Virus record (IMG/VR): IMGVR_UViG_3300035665_000199
Location: 1 to 27,197 of that record
Length of the DNA stretch: 27,197 nt
DNA from: a virus
Direction: 5' to 3' (one strand)
The translations under genes and the position numbers were made by a program. The notes beneath the pieces are model-generated. The model searched no databases, was not told where the DNA came from, and saw only the letters and a program-made list of their open reading frames with translations. Positions 4,487 through 27,197 of this stretch are shown here, piece by piece (positions within the stretch are counted from its first letter, which is position 1; each line of letters begins with the position of its first letter).

Positions 4487-4781
4487 CATACCACAACGCA
4501 AACAACGCCCGTGGCTTACGGGATCGGGGTTCGACAAAGGACGCCGCACGGCGAACTCCGCGTTTTACCAGTCGTCGCCGTGGCGTAAACTGCGCGGAAT
4601 GTTCATTCGAACCAACCCCGTGTGTATTGAATGCGGCCGCGCTGGTGCGGTCGTTGACCATATCGTTCGCGTCAATGACAACCCCGACCTCGCGTTGACG
4701 TGGGCAAACCTTCAAACAATGTGTCACCCGTGCCACAACTCGAAGTCGGGTCGTGAGGCGCACAACAAACCAACACCATGA
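4479..4781 (+). CDS. HNH endonuclease of the packaging module
   Basis: A 100-aa HNH nuclease. The C-terminal half has CIEC, then VVDHI with the catalytic His, then NLQTMCHPCHN with the second Cys pair and final His, which is the classic zinc-bound HNH layout. Small HNH proteins next to P27-type terminases are known to assist terminase cutting at cos sites in HK97-like phages. Four genes' distance from terS fits that role. ATG 4479 overlaps the previous gene by 8 nt; an upstream in-frame ATG at 4452 is possible. Its end overlaps the next ATG (ATGA). Confidence 0.85.
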   Translation: MPNIPQRKQRPWLTGSGFDKGRRTANSAFYQSSPWRKLRGMFIRTNPVCIECGRAGAVVDHIVRVNDNPDLALTWANLQTMCHPCHNSKSGREAHNKPTP

Positions 4782-5035
4782 CCGATATCACTAAATGCAC
4801 GGGCGAAGGCTGCCCGCTAAAAGAAACGTGCCATCGCTTTACCGCGCCGGCTGAAATGTACCAATCGTACTTCATGACCCCGCCGGTTAAGAACGGCAAA
4901 TGCGAATACCATTGGTCGCGAAATGCGACCTCAAGAACGATACTCGACCCAATGCGCGACGCGTTCGACGAAATGAACTGCGACGAATGCGGCGGGTTCG
5001 GGTATCACAAAATGAGTTGCTCGCACGTCAAATGA
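4778..5035 (+). CDS. Cys-rich protein of the CTGEGCPLKxxCHRF type
   Basis: An 85-aa protein. The N-terminus carries Cys pairs in CTGEGCPLKETCHRF (residues 7-21), a central Cys-His lies before HWSR, and MNCDECGG is near residue 66. This pattern resembles small metal-binding proteins I associate with Bacteroidota phages; the function is unknown. It starts in an ATGA overlap with the HNH gene, and its TGA overlaps the ATG of a 19-aa reading frame. Confidence 0.75.
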   Translation: MTDITKCTGEGCPLKETCHRFTAPAEMYQSYFMTPPVKNGKCEYHWSRNATSRTILDPMRDAFDEMNCDECGGFGYHKMSCSHVK

Positions 5036-22107: not shown

Positions 22108-22283
22108 TTGATCGGTTATTCCGCAATCTAAAAACCACGTTCTTGGGTTTGATCGTTTTGCTGGTTTGTTTCGGTTTCGTTTGGTTCGGCAAAGCGACAT
22201 TGACCGAACTCGGCGTTTTCGTCGTGGGCGGATTTTCAATGTTGTTTCTCAAAGACCCAAAGACCGATGGCGGCGAAAAGTAA
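22104..22283 (+). CDS. Second small membrane protein, holin candidate
   Basis: A 59-aa protein coupled to the previous gene by ATGA. It has two hydrophobic segments (TFLGLIVLLVCFGFVWFG near 12-29 and LGVFVVGGFSMLFL near 36-49) with a short charged link and a polar tail. Two-TM proteins of this size next to an amidase are often holins. Which of the two membrane genes is the holin, and whether one is the inhibitor, cannot be told from sequence. Confidence 0.6.
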   Translation: MIDRLFRNLKTTFLGLIVLLVCFGFVWFGKATLTELGVFVVGGFSMLFLKDPKTDGGEK

Positions 22284-22389
22284 TTCGGTTTCAACCCACG
22301 TTTCGAAATCGCACAAACGCGGCAAACACGCGAAGTGTGCCAAACACGGCAACAAAACAAAGCCAAACCGCGGCCAAGGTCGGTCGTGA
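22267..22389 (+). CDS. 40-aa basic His/Lys-rich protein
   Basis: A short frame from ATG 22267 to TGA 22387-22389, overlapping the membrane protein gene by 17 nt in another frame. It is rich in Lys, His, Arg and Gly (SHKRGKHAKCAKHGNK, then NRGQGR) with one Cys. The composition is coherent, and I associate similar basic proteins with this position in Bacteroidota phages. It could bind nucleic acid or metal. Homology would be needed to be sure. Confidence 0.5.
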   Translation: MAAKSNSVSTHVSKSHKRGKHAKCAKHGNKTKPNRGQGRS

Positions 22390-22627
22390 CATATTTACTA
22401 TGTTTTTTGTTACGAATAGTGAACCCTTTATCGTGCATTGAGTGGCACATTCGTTGTCAATGTACGTTTTATTGTACATTATGACTACAAATTGTGCAAT
22501 TAAACGAACGTTACCAATATGCAAAAGGTGCAAATTGCTAATTCAAATTAGCATAAATTTTGCAAAGTGTCAAGTCAAATGGGCATAAAGTGTAAAACGT
22601 GCAACTTTTGATATTGAAAACGTGACC
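22390..22627 (+). promoter_or_regulatory. AT-rich noncoding region with TGCAAA boxes and inverted repeats
   Basis: This is the longest noncoding stretch apart from the dispersed repeats. It holds AATGTAC-8 nt-GTACATT (22459-22480), AATTG-TG-CAATT (22490-22501) and GCTAATT-CA-AATTAGC (22537-22552), the last nested inside TGCAAA (22529) and TTTGCA (22564). TGCAAA-like boxes start at 22520, 22529, 22561, 22591 (TGTAAAA) and 22600 (TGCAAC). A possible promoter (TTG 22535, 16 nt, TAAATTTT 22554) would contain the inverted repeat as its spacer, as an operator might. A replication origin is the main alternative. Confidence 0.55.
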
Positions 22628-23044
22628 ATGCGTAAACTTACCCGAATCATTTTGCATTGCACCGCGACGCCCGAAGGCCGTCACGTTGACGTCGCAACCA
22701 TTAACGCGTGGCACGTCAAACGCGGTTGGTCGGGAATCGGCTACCATTTCGTTATTTATCTTGACGGATCCGTTCACGCTGGCCGCGACGTTTCAAAGGT
22801 CGGCGCACACGTCGCCGGGCATAACGCCGATACAATCGGTATCGTTTACGTCGGCGGCTGCGATGCGGCAATGAAGGCAAAGGACACGTTGAACGCGGCA
22901 CAAGAAACCGCGGTCGTCAATTTGGTTAAGGCACTTCGCGACCAGTTCGGGGCGTTGACGCTGCATGGTCATAACGAATACGCCGCAAAGGCGTGTCCGT
23001 CATTCAAAGTAAAAGACAAATTCAAATGGCTCGTTGGCTACTAA
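22628..23044 (+). CDS. Endolysin: N-acetylmuramoyl-L-alanine amidase, T7 lysozyme type
   Basis: A 138-aa Amidase_2 protein. Zinc ligands H10 (ILHCTAT), H115 and C123 (HNEYAAKACPSF), with Y39 and K121, keep the same spacing as H17, Y46, H122, K128 and C130 of T7 lysozyme. It cuts the amide bond between MurNAc and the stem peptide. There is no signal peptide, so it needs a holin for release. ATG 22628 gives the normal T7-like N-terminus; GTG 22622 is an alternative. Its end overlaps the lipoprotein gene by 19 nt. Confidence 0.93.
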   Translation: MRKLTRIILHCTATPEGRHVDVATINAWHVKRGWSGIGYHFVIYLDGSVHAGRDVSKVGAHVAGHNADTIGIVYVGGCDAAMKAKDTLNAAQETAVVNLVKALRDQFGALTLHGHNEYAAKACPSFKVKDKFKWLVGY

Positions 23045-23534: not shown

Positions 23535-23670
23535 ACGTTGTTCAAAAGTTTATTTGTATTTATTTGGTTACTATTGATGCGCCGTGTATTTTATTTATTT
23601 ATATATATATCCCTACGGGATATATATATAAATAAATAAAATCAACAACGCGTGTCAATAACTTTTGAGG
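23535..23670 (+). repeat. 136-bp dispersed repeat with perfect 26-bp hairpin, copy B
   Basis: Second copy of 8141-8276. The perfect hairpin stem is 23588-23613 against 23617-23642. Unlike copy A, the outermost ends here also pair (TCAAAAGTT at 23542 and AACTTTTGA at 23668). Before it, 23455-23534 has a weak hairpin (CCGACCA/TGGTTCGG, 23460-23477) and no gene. Copy B precedes the promoter of the 23723 gene and closes the lysis cassette. Confidence 0.9.
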
Positions 23671-23672
23671 CA

Positions 23673-23702
23673 TTGAATCATTGGTTAAGTTTTGTATATT
23701 TG
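23673..23702 (+). promoter_or_regulatory. Bacteroidota-type promoter
   Basis: TTG at 23673-23675, 19-nt spacer, TATATTTG at 23695-23702: an exact TAnnTTTG match with correct spacing. It lies 3 nt after repeat copy B and about 20 nt before ATG 23723. Confidence 0.8.
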
Positions 23703-23722
23703 CAGCCAACAAACAAAAAACA

Positions 23723-23908
23723 ATGATCATGGAAAACAAAAAAACTTATTTGGGCAAAGCAATGATGCAAAGCATCGTCGGCACAATCTTATCGCTCACC
23801 GCCGTATCGCATACCTCAATGACTTGGACTTGCATTCTCGGCGCCCTCGCCTTGGTATGGCTTGCATCCGCGCACCACAACTTCAACAAATACGAAAATC
23901 GCGGGTGA
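23723..23908 (+). CDS. Small membrane protein with its own promoter
   Basis: A 61-aa protein with two hydrophobic stretches (SIVGTILSLTAVSH near 16-29 and TCILGALALVWLASA near 36-50) and a polar C-terminus (HHNFNKYENRG). ATG 23723 follows the promoter; ATG 23729 is equally possible. It is monocistronic, between promoter 23673 and terminator 23948. Expression on its own suggests an early host-takeover or superinfection-exclusion type role, but that is speculation. Confidence 0.65.
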   Translation: MIMENKKTYLGKAMMQSIVGTILSLTAVSHTSMTWTCILGALALVWLASAHHNFNKYENRG

Positions 23909-23947: not shown

Positions 23948-23977
23948 CCCCGCCCGAAACGGCGGGGTTTTTCTTTT
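23948..23977 (+). terminator. Intrinsic terminator
   Basis: CCCCGCC (23948-23954), loop CGAAAC and GGCGGGG (23961-23967) form a 7-bp GC stem followed by TTTTTCTTTT. It ends the transcript of the 23723 gene and insulates it from the SSB promoter. Confidence 0.92.
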
Positions 23978-24067: not shown

Positions 24068-24592
24068 ATGACAACAAAACCCGATTTCCAAAAAGGGGTT
24101 CGCGCTATTATTAGCGGAACCGCTCAATGGGCGCAATTAACGCCCAAGTCCGGCCCTAACAAAATGGCCAACAAATACCAATGCGATTTGATGATCGACG
24201 ATACCTCGTTGAAACTACTTGAATCCATCGGTGCATATAAGTTCATTCAAATCAAAGGCATGGACGGACAACCTAAATACGAGGTTCCGGCCGTTCGTAT
24301 TAAGGCGAACAACCCGCCCAACGTATTCGATACGCACAAGGCGACGTTCGACGACTACATCAACAATGGTTCAGTTCTGAAAACGAATTGCATCGTTAAG
24401 GCGTACGAATACAACGGCAAAAAAGGTTTGTCCGTTTGGGTGAACGACGTGATCGTTCTAAACCTTGCCGAGCGTGGCGAAGGTGGCGGCACTCCGTCCG
24501 ATTTCTTCGAAGGCGTGAAGCCGACGGAACCAACCTTTGACGCGGTTCAGCCGAACACGGCAACCAACGACGACGATGGTTTCCCGTTCTAA
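24068..24592 (+). CDS. Single-stranded DNA-binding protein, T7 gp2.5-like
   Basis: A 174-aa protein. The core has GTAQWAQLTPKSGPNKMANK near residues 17-36 and AYEYNGKKGLSVWVNDV near 113-129, typical of phage SSBs with an OB fold (DUF2815/gp2.5-like). It ends in an acidic tail with a final aromatic residue (NDDDGFPF), the usual SSB partner-binding tip. It coats ssDNA and recruits replication and recombination enzymes. It is the first gene after the promoter. The end overlaps the next gene by 17 nt. Confidence 0.88.
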   Translation: MTTKPDFQKGVRAIISGTAQWAQLTPKSGPNKMANKYQCDLMIDDTSLKLLESIGAYKFIQIKGMDGQPKYEVPAVRIKANNPPNVFDTHKATFDDYINNGSVLKTNCIVKAYEYNGKKGLSVWVNDVIVLNLAERGEGGGTPSDFFEGVKPTEPTFDAVQPNTATNDDDGFPF

Positions 24593-24998
24593 CATTCACG
24601 ACCGGTTACACTACGCCGAATGGGTGGTTCAGTTCTCCGAGAACTGGGCCGCTCAATCGACGGGTTCAATCAAACGCAATTCCCGCGTGACCTCAATCAA
24701 CGAGTTGCGGCGAATGGTGATCGCGTATTGCTATTGGGAAATCGGATTGAACCAATCCCAAACCGGGGCGATTGTGAACCGCAAGCACCCCGCGATACAT
24801 CACCAGTTGCGCGTTCACAATGAGGCGCACCAAACGGCGGGAAACACAAACCGCCAAACCGATCCTAACTATTGCCGCAATTACAAATTGTACGTGAGCG
24901 ACATCGAACGGGAATCGCGCGAAACGTCAATCGAATACGTCAAAGCCGAAATCGAGCGACTGCAACTTCAATTAAACGAATTAAACAAAAAACCATGA
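24576..24998 (+). CDS. DnaA C-terminal-like HTH protein
   Basis: A 140-aa protein. RMVIAYCYWEIGLNQSQTGA followed by IVNRKHPAIHHQLRVHNE (residues 47-84) resembles the DnaA domain IV helix-turn-helix, including an RKHPAIHH version of the DnaA RDHSTV motif. There is no AAA+ domain. The C-terminus is a coiled coil (EIERLQLQLNELN). It may bind the phage origin or act as a regulator. ATG 24576 overlaps the SSB gene; an upstream in-frame start exists at 24537. The stop overlaps the next ATG. Confidence 0.7.
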   Translation: MVSRSNIHDRLHYAEWVVQFSENWAAQSTGSIKRNSRVTSINELRRMVIAYCYWEIGLNQSQTGAIVNRKHPAIHHQLRVHNEAHQTAGNTNRQTDPNYCRNYKLYVSDIERESRETSIEYVKAEIERLQLQLNELNKKP

Positions 24999-25863: not shown

Positions 25864-26102
25864 ACCGCGTGTCTGAATTTTTAGAACGCGCCCGCACGCT
25901 GGCCGATCGTTGGGAATCCGACGACATGGTTTCGTTGTGCAACGATATTGAAATAATGGTCGCATTTTGCGAAATGAATCTACCGAACTATGCCCTCACC
26001 CACTACATTAGCGGAACTCCGCCAGTTCGCAAAGATTCACAACCAAGCGAGATACCCCAACGTTCCGACGTCGGCATTGCCGGCGACAACGTTCACCGAT
26101 AA
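25839..26102 (+). CDS. Small helical protein overlapping VRR-NUC gene
   Basis: An 87-aa frame from ATG 25839 (inside the end of the nuclease gene) to TAA 26100-26102. The first 50 residues are a clear helical unit (VEQRLNRVSEFLERARTLAD, then MVAFCEMNL). The last 38 residues are encoded in the same DNA as the VRR-NUC start and look low-complexity and polar. The N-terminal part fills the gap between two well-supported genes. Function is unknown. Confidence 0.55.
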   Translation: MVDVEQRLNRVSEFLERARTLADRWESDDMVSLCNDIEIMVAFCEMNLPNYALTHYISGTPPVRKDSQPSEIPQRSDVGIAGDNVHR

Positions 26103-26421
26103 AACGGCAAACGGACTTACCAATGCGATCATATACGACATCATGCACGTTTGCGGGGGCGCTGCTTACCGAATCAACAACGGGGCAACTTACGACCGCG
26201 CAAAGAACATATATCGTGCGGGCGTCACGAAACGCGGCGTCCCCGATATTATTGCCGTCGTGGATGGGCGATTCATCGGAATCGAGGTAAAGATCGGAGC
26301 CGACCGCCAGTCGTCGCATCAACGCGAGGTCGAGGCGGAAATCAACGCCGCTCGCGGGGTTTACTTTATCGCGAAAACGTACGAGCAATATGTCAGTTCC
26401 CTCGCCGCATCGCTTCGATAA
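25990..26421 (+). CDS. VRR-NUC nuclease, variant copy
   Basis: A 143-aa variant of the gene at 15-446. Active-site residues D86, E99 and K101 are unchanged. Differences include F49Y, I52M and a cluster near the C-terminus (residues 120-122 and 132-141). The reading frame is intact, so both alleles look functional. It is most likely the same locus in another strain. Confidence 0.85.
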   Translation: MPSPTTLAELRQFAKIHNQARYPNVPTSALPATTFTDKTANGLTNAIIYDIMHVCGGAAYRINNGATYDRAKNIYRAGVTKRGVPDIIAVVDGRFIGIEVKIGADRQSSHQREVEAEINAARGVYFIAKTYEQYVSSLAASLR

Positions 26422-26800
26422 GCAGCGCGGCGAATGGGCTGAAGCGCAGTTCGTGGCGGACGCGTTGAAAAATGGTTTTGAAATCTTCACGCCCATTGGC
26501 GATTGTTCGTCAATAGATTTCGTAATTTTTCACGATGGTAAACCGATACGAATTCAATGCAAGGCAACGTGGACGAACCTAAAGGGCAAATCCAAGTGGA
26601 ACATCGGTAAAGGGTCGTCGGCGAAGAAACGCTACACGGATCACGACGTGGATTTTTTGGCGCTTTACGATGGAAACATTGAGTGTTGGCGGTTTGTCCG
26701 GCCAAGTGAAACAAACGGACAAAAAACATTTAGGATAGCACAAGACGAAACAAACAAACTGGAAAATTGGCATGACCTCAAAGAATTCAACGATCATTGA
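26390..26800 (+). CDS. PD-(D/E)XK endonuclease-like protein, variant copy
   Basis: A 136-aa variant of the gene at 415-825. The core with D43 and QCK is identical. Changes lie in the N-terminal dozen residues (P7H, S9F, H12Q) and one near the C-terminus (RIPQD to RIAQD). The frame is intact. Confidence 0.75.
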   Translation: MSVPSPHRFDKQRGEWAEAQFVADALKNGFEIFTPIGDCSSIDFVIFHDGKPIRIQCKATWTNLKGKSKWNIGKGSSAKKRYTDHDVDFLALYDGNIECWRFVRPSETNGQKTFRIAQDETNKLENWHDLKEFNDH

Positions 26801-27197
26801 TTTAGCACGGCGCTACCTCGCCGCCGGGTTCTCACCCATACCATTGGTTCCGGGCGATAAGCGCCCAAGCGTAAAGGGGTGGCAACGCTACGGCGACGAG
26901 CCTATGGGTTGGGGCGAGGCCGACCGAATGTTTGCCGACACGGATTCCATCGGTATCGTTTGCGGTTACGACGGCCTCGAGGTTCTCGACATCGACGCCA
27001 AGCACTTCGACGGCGACGAATTAACCGAGTTCACCACGTTACTGGACGCCGAAGCGCCGGGCCTTCGCTCGAAAATGACCATTCAACAAACGCGGTCGGG
27101 CGGTGAACATTGGATTTACAAATGCGATTCGGTCGAAGGCAATCAAAAGTTGGCGCGGAATATAGAAGGCGAAACGACGTTTGAAACACGCGGCGTC
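26772..27197 (+). CDS. Primase-polymerase, variant copy cut by window end
   Basis: The first 142 residues of a variant of the gene at 797-2773. The prim-pol motifs VLDID, SGGEHW and FETRGV are all present. A few conservative changes occur (for example E42D, K52R, N85T), while most base differences are silent. It is truncated only by the window edge. Confidence 0.85.
   Translation, partial: MTSKNSTIIDLARRYLAAGFSPIPLVPGDKRPSVKGWQRYGDEPMGWGEADRMFADTDSIGIVCGYDGLEVLDIDAKHFDGDELTEFTTLLDAEAPGLRSKMTIQQTRSGGEHWIYKCDSVEGNQKLARNIEGETTFETRGV

Follow-up and report, generated by a model that had tools for sequence, protein, structure and literature searches.

Location and composition of the region upstream of the endolysin gene

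What does the noncoding DNA directly upstream of an endolysin gene do in an uncultivated phage, and is any part of it kept in other phages? The DNA analyzed (the window) is a whole virus record of 27,197 bases with genes for phage terminase, portal, tape-measure, amidase, annealing-protein and exonuclease. Its ends overlap (25976-27197 versus 1-1222, 95.25% identity, gap-free), and the simplest interpretation is a circularly permuted, complete map of roughly 25,975 bases; the imperfect identity of the overlap would come from assembly of diverged strains or from sequencing errors. The gap under study and its borders hold the following features.

22267-22389, + strand: gene for a very basic 40-aa protein, motif HVSKSxKRGKHxK...GQGR; left border of the gap, TGA at 22387-22389
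22390-22621, + strand: hypervariable intergenic region, 232 nt, 33% G+C; mosaic, dispensable among relatives
22390-22417, + strand: upstream dyad module (CATATTTACTATGTTTTTTGTTACG); variable, common to the window and some relatives
22430-22517, + strand: conserved core, 80 to 90 nt, a palindrome array; one copy per record
22433-22448, unstranded: core palindrome 1, GTGC-N8-GCAC; arms kept, spacer free to vary
22459-22480, unstranded: core palindrome 2, AATGTAC-N8-GTACATT; both arms kept
22478-22498, + strand: 21-nt block ATTATGACTACAAATTGTGCA; intact in 77 of 78 stretches picked by the neighboring palindrome 2 alone
22494-22509, unstranded: position of core palindrome 3 (GTGC-N8-GCAC); the left arm GTGC is retained, and the window has a degenerate right arm (GAAC)
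22529-22560, + strand: 32-nt unit a, containing the dyad at 22537-22552; unit number differs between phages
22561-22592, + strand: 32-nt unit b; the block of 95% identity with the closest relative starts inside it (22563)
22593-22621, + strand: tail, consisting of GTAAAA, a short variable piece and CAACTTTTGATATTGAAAAC, directly 5' of the start codon
22622-23044, + strand: N-acetylmuramoyl-L-alanine amidase endolysin gene (PHROG 822 amidase, E 2.7e-53)

The lysin may start at GTG 22622 or at ATG 22628. The 40-aa protein on the other side of the gap had no Pfam or PHROGs match, and an open reading frame (ORF) homologous to its gene recurs upstream of the lysin in relatives.

A preliminary description of this DNA had pointed to an AT-rich gap of about 240 bases with inverted repeats and TGCAAA-like boxes, and this was borne out. 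The G+C content of 22388-22627 is 32.9%, and the gap ranks fourth among the 200-nt segments of lowest G+C in the genome, the lowest being 23550-23749. The boxes exceed chance: TGCAAA occurs three times, at 22520, 22529 and 22561, versus 0.48 expected (three were reached in a fraction of 0.012 of 5,000 first-order simulations), and TGCAA five times, additionally at 22495 and 22600, versus 1.12 expected (fraction 0.0034 of 5,000 first-order simulations). The first two TGCAAA boxes lie exactly 9 bases apart, as described. The hexamer is not rare genome-wide, with 19 occurrences on the + strand. Units a and b, missed in the preliminary description, form a direct repeat and are 75% alike. Among 61 distinct tails, the perfect dyad GCTAATT-CA-AATTAGC at 22537-22552 was found only in that of the window, with a looser form in 14, and TGCAAA-N3-TGCAAA was present in 42. 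Tail length is fixed in 60 of the 61, and the variable piece is 4 nt long with nine sequence variants.

A core shared by otherwise dissimilar phages

Comparison with relatives revealed strong conservation of part of the region, the core. Using an exact-match scan, a 21-mer from the gap was found in at least 80 other uncultivated-phage stretches, and a pattern made from palindrome 2 alone matched at least 78, of which 77 carried the 21-mer intact. As such scans need exact matches, these locus numbers are lower bounds, and the 80-stretch set was selected for the 21-mer. An initial 16-nt scan gave many chance matches in coding DNA, which were told apart by context. The 21-mer was absent from 84,980 species genomes; the 263-nt region gave only short chance matches, none of them credible, against 50,697 phage records and no match against plasmids. 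No paper on the core was found by title or abstract among openly licensed PMC papers.

For 33 chosen loci the underlying records were searched, giving a long match in 29, short or weak pieces in three and nothing in one. The long match was single in each of the 29 records, except for the terminal repeat of G023. When 14 joined records were searched with a profile, the core was identified in 12 and a second copy in none. In pairwise comparisons of G027 with G019, G015 or the window, the core was the best or second-best nucleotide match (81 to 98 nt, 85 to 96%) between genomes that are otherwise nearly unalignable.

The gene downstream of the core was inspected in 81 cases (the 80 stretches and the window). 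It encodes an M15 peptidase of type a in 68, an M15 peptidase of type b in four and an amidase in two, the core being upstream of and co-directional with these lysins; another gene follows in five cases, and in two the contig end is too near. The five non-lysin cases represent three contexts (L173, with a methyltransferase; L176; and L190, L202 and L207), in all of which the core lies upstream of, and co-directional with, early genes, although three of the five are near-identical records.

We infer that the hosts of the core-bearing phages are Bacteroidota, since phages of Nonlabens, Flavobacterium, Cellulophaga and Maribacter encode relatives of proteins from two other phages with the element, and Bacteroidota-type promoters (TTG-N18..22-TAnnTTTG) number four on the + strand of the window versus 0.5 in shuffles. 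Amidase relatives in genome contigs, at most 57% identical and of mixed phyla, are uninformative on the host, and portal and terminase matches are mixed as indicators.

Separately from the gap, an A+T-rich inverted repeat is present at 23579-23651 (35-nt arms, 89% complementary, 3-nt gap). It directly precedes a textbook promoter of the Bacteroidota type, TTG-N19-TATATTTG (23673-23702), and the cumulative GC-skew maximum of the window (23702) coincides with this site. Positions 23579-23702 are likely a terminator plus an early promoter.

Anatomy of the core and constraint on it

The spacing between palindrome starts is 29 and 32 nt, close to three turns of the helix, and no length change was seen across 52 haplotypes. 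As in an operator-type array, conserved half-sites enclose a free spacer in palindrome 1, and palindrome 2 keeps both arms; the right arm of palindrome 3 departs from this pattern. One base pair of palindrome 3 is broken in 17 of the 52 haplotypes, and the palindrome is not kept in the window. It thus does not behave as a kept dyad, which counts against a strict three-operator reading. Distances from the core to the start codon are mostly 113 or 145 nt, with 112, 143, 144, 175 and 250 also found, as the 32-nt units after the core vary in number.

Selection was gauged on the 26 core-bearing loci fetched via the lysin protein, which are the strong profile matches among 75 M15 loci. The lysin-protein sets, chosen independently of the 21-mer, consisted of the best 80 matches each, of which 40 amidase loci and 75 M15 loci were used. 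Across the 26 loci the mean pairwise difference was 0.024 in the block from -36 to +23 and 0.003 in its center (-8 to +19), while in the lysin it was 0.185 at codon position 3 and 0.037 at positions 1 and 2. Parts of the core itself drift, with values of 0.183 for the spacer of palindrome 1 and 0.277 for the right arm of palindrome 3. As recent spread alone would have left the block and the drifting parts equal, these differences indicate that the block is under purifying selection and has not only spread recently. Fixed arms beside drifting spacers fit protein-binding sites. Noncoding DNA that is conserved beyond the coding positions of its neighbor, in unrelated phages, and is yet dispensable is unusual.

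Mosaicism of the gap

The sequence upstream of the same lysin ranges from nothing, where stop and start codons overlap, to 271 nt. In 53 M15 lysin loci (L307 to L359, from the best 80 matches), the core was present in 26, other content in 18 and no gap in nine. On a quick lysin tree of these loci the core is gained or lost at least 12 times, a rough figure given the weak support of the tree (7 of 46 inner branches starred). The core is absent from G028, to which the window is most closely related. The window and G028 are 94.9% identical from 22563 rightwards, versus 89% just left of the gap and 75 to 83% further left, a pattern that places a recombination breakpoint inside the gap. A conserved sequence stands at the border of a module, and exchange has taken place on both sides of it. 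In five other loci (L006, L007, L016, L017 and L022) a different nested-dyad module (TTCGGATAACGTCCGATTAAAG ... GTGCA..TGCAC .. GCATAAT) replaces the core before the lysin.

A putative control cassette and alternative readings

With about even confidence, we regard the region as a dispensable, exchanged, putative protein-binding cis-control cassette that is also a recombination junction. Under this reading, a group of uncultivated phages would carry a cis-acting cassette that has inserted after the last late gene and ahead of the lysin. The palindromes, about three turns apart and so on nearly the same helix face, would most likely be the target of a DNA-binding protein from either phage or host, and this putative protein may set the timing or strength of expression of the downstream gene. 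Being nearly identical in unrelated phages, the core could also serve as a homology patch for exchange of whole cassettes and lysin modules. Conserved, palindromic, single copy, co-directional with the gene that follows, mosaic in its surroundings and dispensable, the core presumably binds a protein and may control transcription, with lysis timing as a conceivable purpose. The preliminary description had proposed, among other readings, a late-gene switch timing lysis; of its readings, a switch before the lysin survives best. Several points count against the control cassette: the dispensability of the core in close relatives, which argues against an important switch, the lack of a recognizable host promoter in the gap, the imperfect keeping of palindrome 3, and the failure to identify a binding protein among those common to the joined genomes.

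A broader reading is offered only tentatively. The core may be a portable, single-copy palindromic element, confined to phages, that is passed among unrelated phages sharing a host guild and inserts ahead of lysis or early genes, either under a shared regulator encoded by host or phage or as a decoy for a host defense factor.

It is also conceivable, if rather doubtful, that the stretch is kept purely as a homology boundary for swaps of lysis modules and has no part in regulation. The breakpoint in the gap, its mosaic contents and patchy presence, the varied genes that flank the same core on both sides, and the predicted annealing-protein and exonuclease genes of the phage all favor such a junction. 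Homology alone, however, would not fix a sub-block while its own spacer drifts at the third-position rate, and the core also precedes unrelated early genes.

A structured RNA, put forward in the preliminary description as well, is unlikely, whether as a leader or small RNA or as a repeat-type antitoxin RNA mimic. The palindromes, the fold of the window (z of -1.8 on the + strand and -1.9 on the - strand) and an RNAalifold consensus energy for the core of -10.2 versus -2.0 in column shuffles (z of -5) are in keeping with it; a palindrome array would give such a low consensus energy too, but the energy does leave room for RNA hairpins. Against it, no double changes were found in 16 core pairs across 52 haplotypes, double-change cells in the tail amounted to 0 of 370 and 2 of 432, and neither the window nor eight loci had an Rfam match. 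Moreover, where the CTTTTGATATT block is swapped, the strand facing it in the predicted long stem stays the same.

An iteron-type replication origin, in which an initiator would act at the 32-nt units and the TGCAAA boxes, has lost ground since the preliminary description and is very unlikely. Its attractions are direct units of variable number, A+T richness, one occurrence per genome and, in G015, G019 and G005, a cumulative GC-skew maximum no more than 200 nt from the core. A skew change is thus indeed nearby in some genomes, but it is a terminus-like maximum, whereas origins usually show a minimum, and its amplitude is mostly small, with block shuffles exceeded in only some genomes. The distance between core and maximum is 1.2 kb in the window, 2.4 to 2.7 kb in G023, G007 and G012, and 8.9 kb in G027 and G021; in four complete genomes the minima lie about 10 to 13 kb away on the circle. 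The core is missing in G028 and nine of the 53 related loci have no gap, whereas an origin that the replicon needs would be expected in close relatives. There is no DnaA box in the gap (the sole exact TTWTNCACA of the window is at 23977), and no initiator gene was recognized alongside, the tested neighbors of the core having no DnaA or Rep match. The ORF at 24537-24998, taken for a DnaA-like protein in the preliminary description, had no DnaA match and in PHROGs hit only an unknown family (E 0.007).

A short leader or zinc-knuckle peptide, for which ATG 22481 opens MTTNCAIKRTLPICKRCKLLIQISINFAKCQVKWA, is more improbable still. The 9-base pitch of the TGCAAA boxes would correspond to a Cys-Lys-Arg-Cys codon run, the paired boxes recur in most tails (42 of 61), and the N terminus MTTNCAIK occurs in nearly all core-bearing sequences. 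Yet lengths vary from 13 to 48 aa with unrelated ends, the frame is shifted by the 32-nt units and by a 1-nt length difference, and the first seven codons show almost no synonymous change, which points to constraint on the nucleotides.

Least probable of these is a terminator or attenuator of transcription that would protect the lysin against late read-through: the site does lie at the end of the late genes, and a weak hairpin followed by a T-run can be read near 22391-22410, but a scan found no terminator on the + strand of the gap, the one site that it gave within 22250-22750 falls in the upstream gene, on the minus strand, and relatives without the gap do without it.

An ordinary host promoter is not supported, as the gap holds no canonical match. 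The flavobacterial sigma-A motif TAnnTTTG, as given in the cited part of its source (PMC9723704), is matched elsewhere in these genomes, for example at 23673-23702, whereas the full pattern TTG-N18-22-TAnnTTTG has no exact match in the gap and a single one-mismatch occurrence, with 22-nt spacing, at 22463. In L190-type genomes a promoter of the host type, with one mismatch, lies 84 nt downstream of the core. The dyad at 22537-22552 had been placed in the spacer of a possible promoter, which proves a weak candidate: the sole sigma-70-like match near the dyad (TTGACT-17-TATGCT, 22578-22550) reads on the minus strand and overlaps the dyad with its second hexamer, not with its spacer. Sigma-70-like matches number 3 versus 0.7 expected.

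A XerCD dif site was considered on account of GCATAATGTGTA in the 32-nt units; Bacteroidetes microviruses integrate at dif, according to the cited part of PMC3091885. It was discarded: with E. coli dif as the query, 17 to 19 of 28 positions matched, the same as in shuffled sequence, and a dif-like pattern in 4 of 118 Bacteroidota-side genomes gave matches unlike the 32-nt unit.

Candidate binding factors

Among the proteins common to the joined genomes, no binding protein for the core was identified. The one small protein common to every core-bearing joined genome begins MTDITKC and was rejected as a shared regulator, being present also in G028. The window encodes this small Cys-containing protein (MTDITKCTGEGCPLKETC...) at 4778-5035, and relatives of it occur in G028 and in each of the 12 joined records that bear the element. 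A sigma-like protein was likewise set aside, as it occurs in only 5 of 14 joined genomes. It is represented by a 162-aa sigma-factor-like protein in the core-bearing G015, G019, G005 and G017 and by a version of 32% identity in G012; the first 50 residues of the 162-aa protein match Sigma70_r2 below the cut-off (E 0.012).

Implications and comparison with known systems

To our knowledge, little is known of late control in phages of Bacteroidota. The core offers a concrete handle on how such phages trade lysis modules and time them and, should it bind a common factor, would illustrate the sharing of regulatory parts among phages within one guild of hosts.

Three known systems resemble the putative cassette in part, as far as the cited portions of their sources describe them. 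The SAS and ESAS elements of Cluster K mycobacteriophages are conserved noncoding repeats with 17-bp inverted repeats and are given as of unknown function (PMC3203893). Like the core, they are located shortly before start codons and their inverted repeats are imperfect, but they belong to another phage group, differ in sequence and number 11 to 19 copies per genome for SAS versus one per record for the core. The stoperators of Cluster A mycobacteriophages are intergenic repressor sites all oriented with transcription (PMC3029335). They share the intergenic position and the orientation; they are, however, 13-bp asymmetric sites in 24 to 34 copies per genome, whereas the core is symmetric and clustered in one place. 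By profile search, each of the 12 core-bearing records has a single copy, unlike either many-copy system. Finally, mosaic phages can carry short conserved boundary (linker) sequences between exchanged modules (PMC3029335). The likeness here lies in a short conserved sequence between exchanged modules with a breakpoint inside; the core differs in the purifying selection on its block relative to its own spacer and in its position before unrelated early genes.
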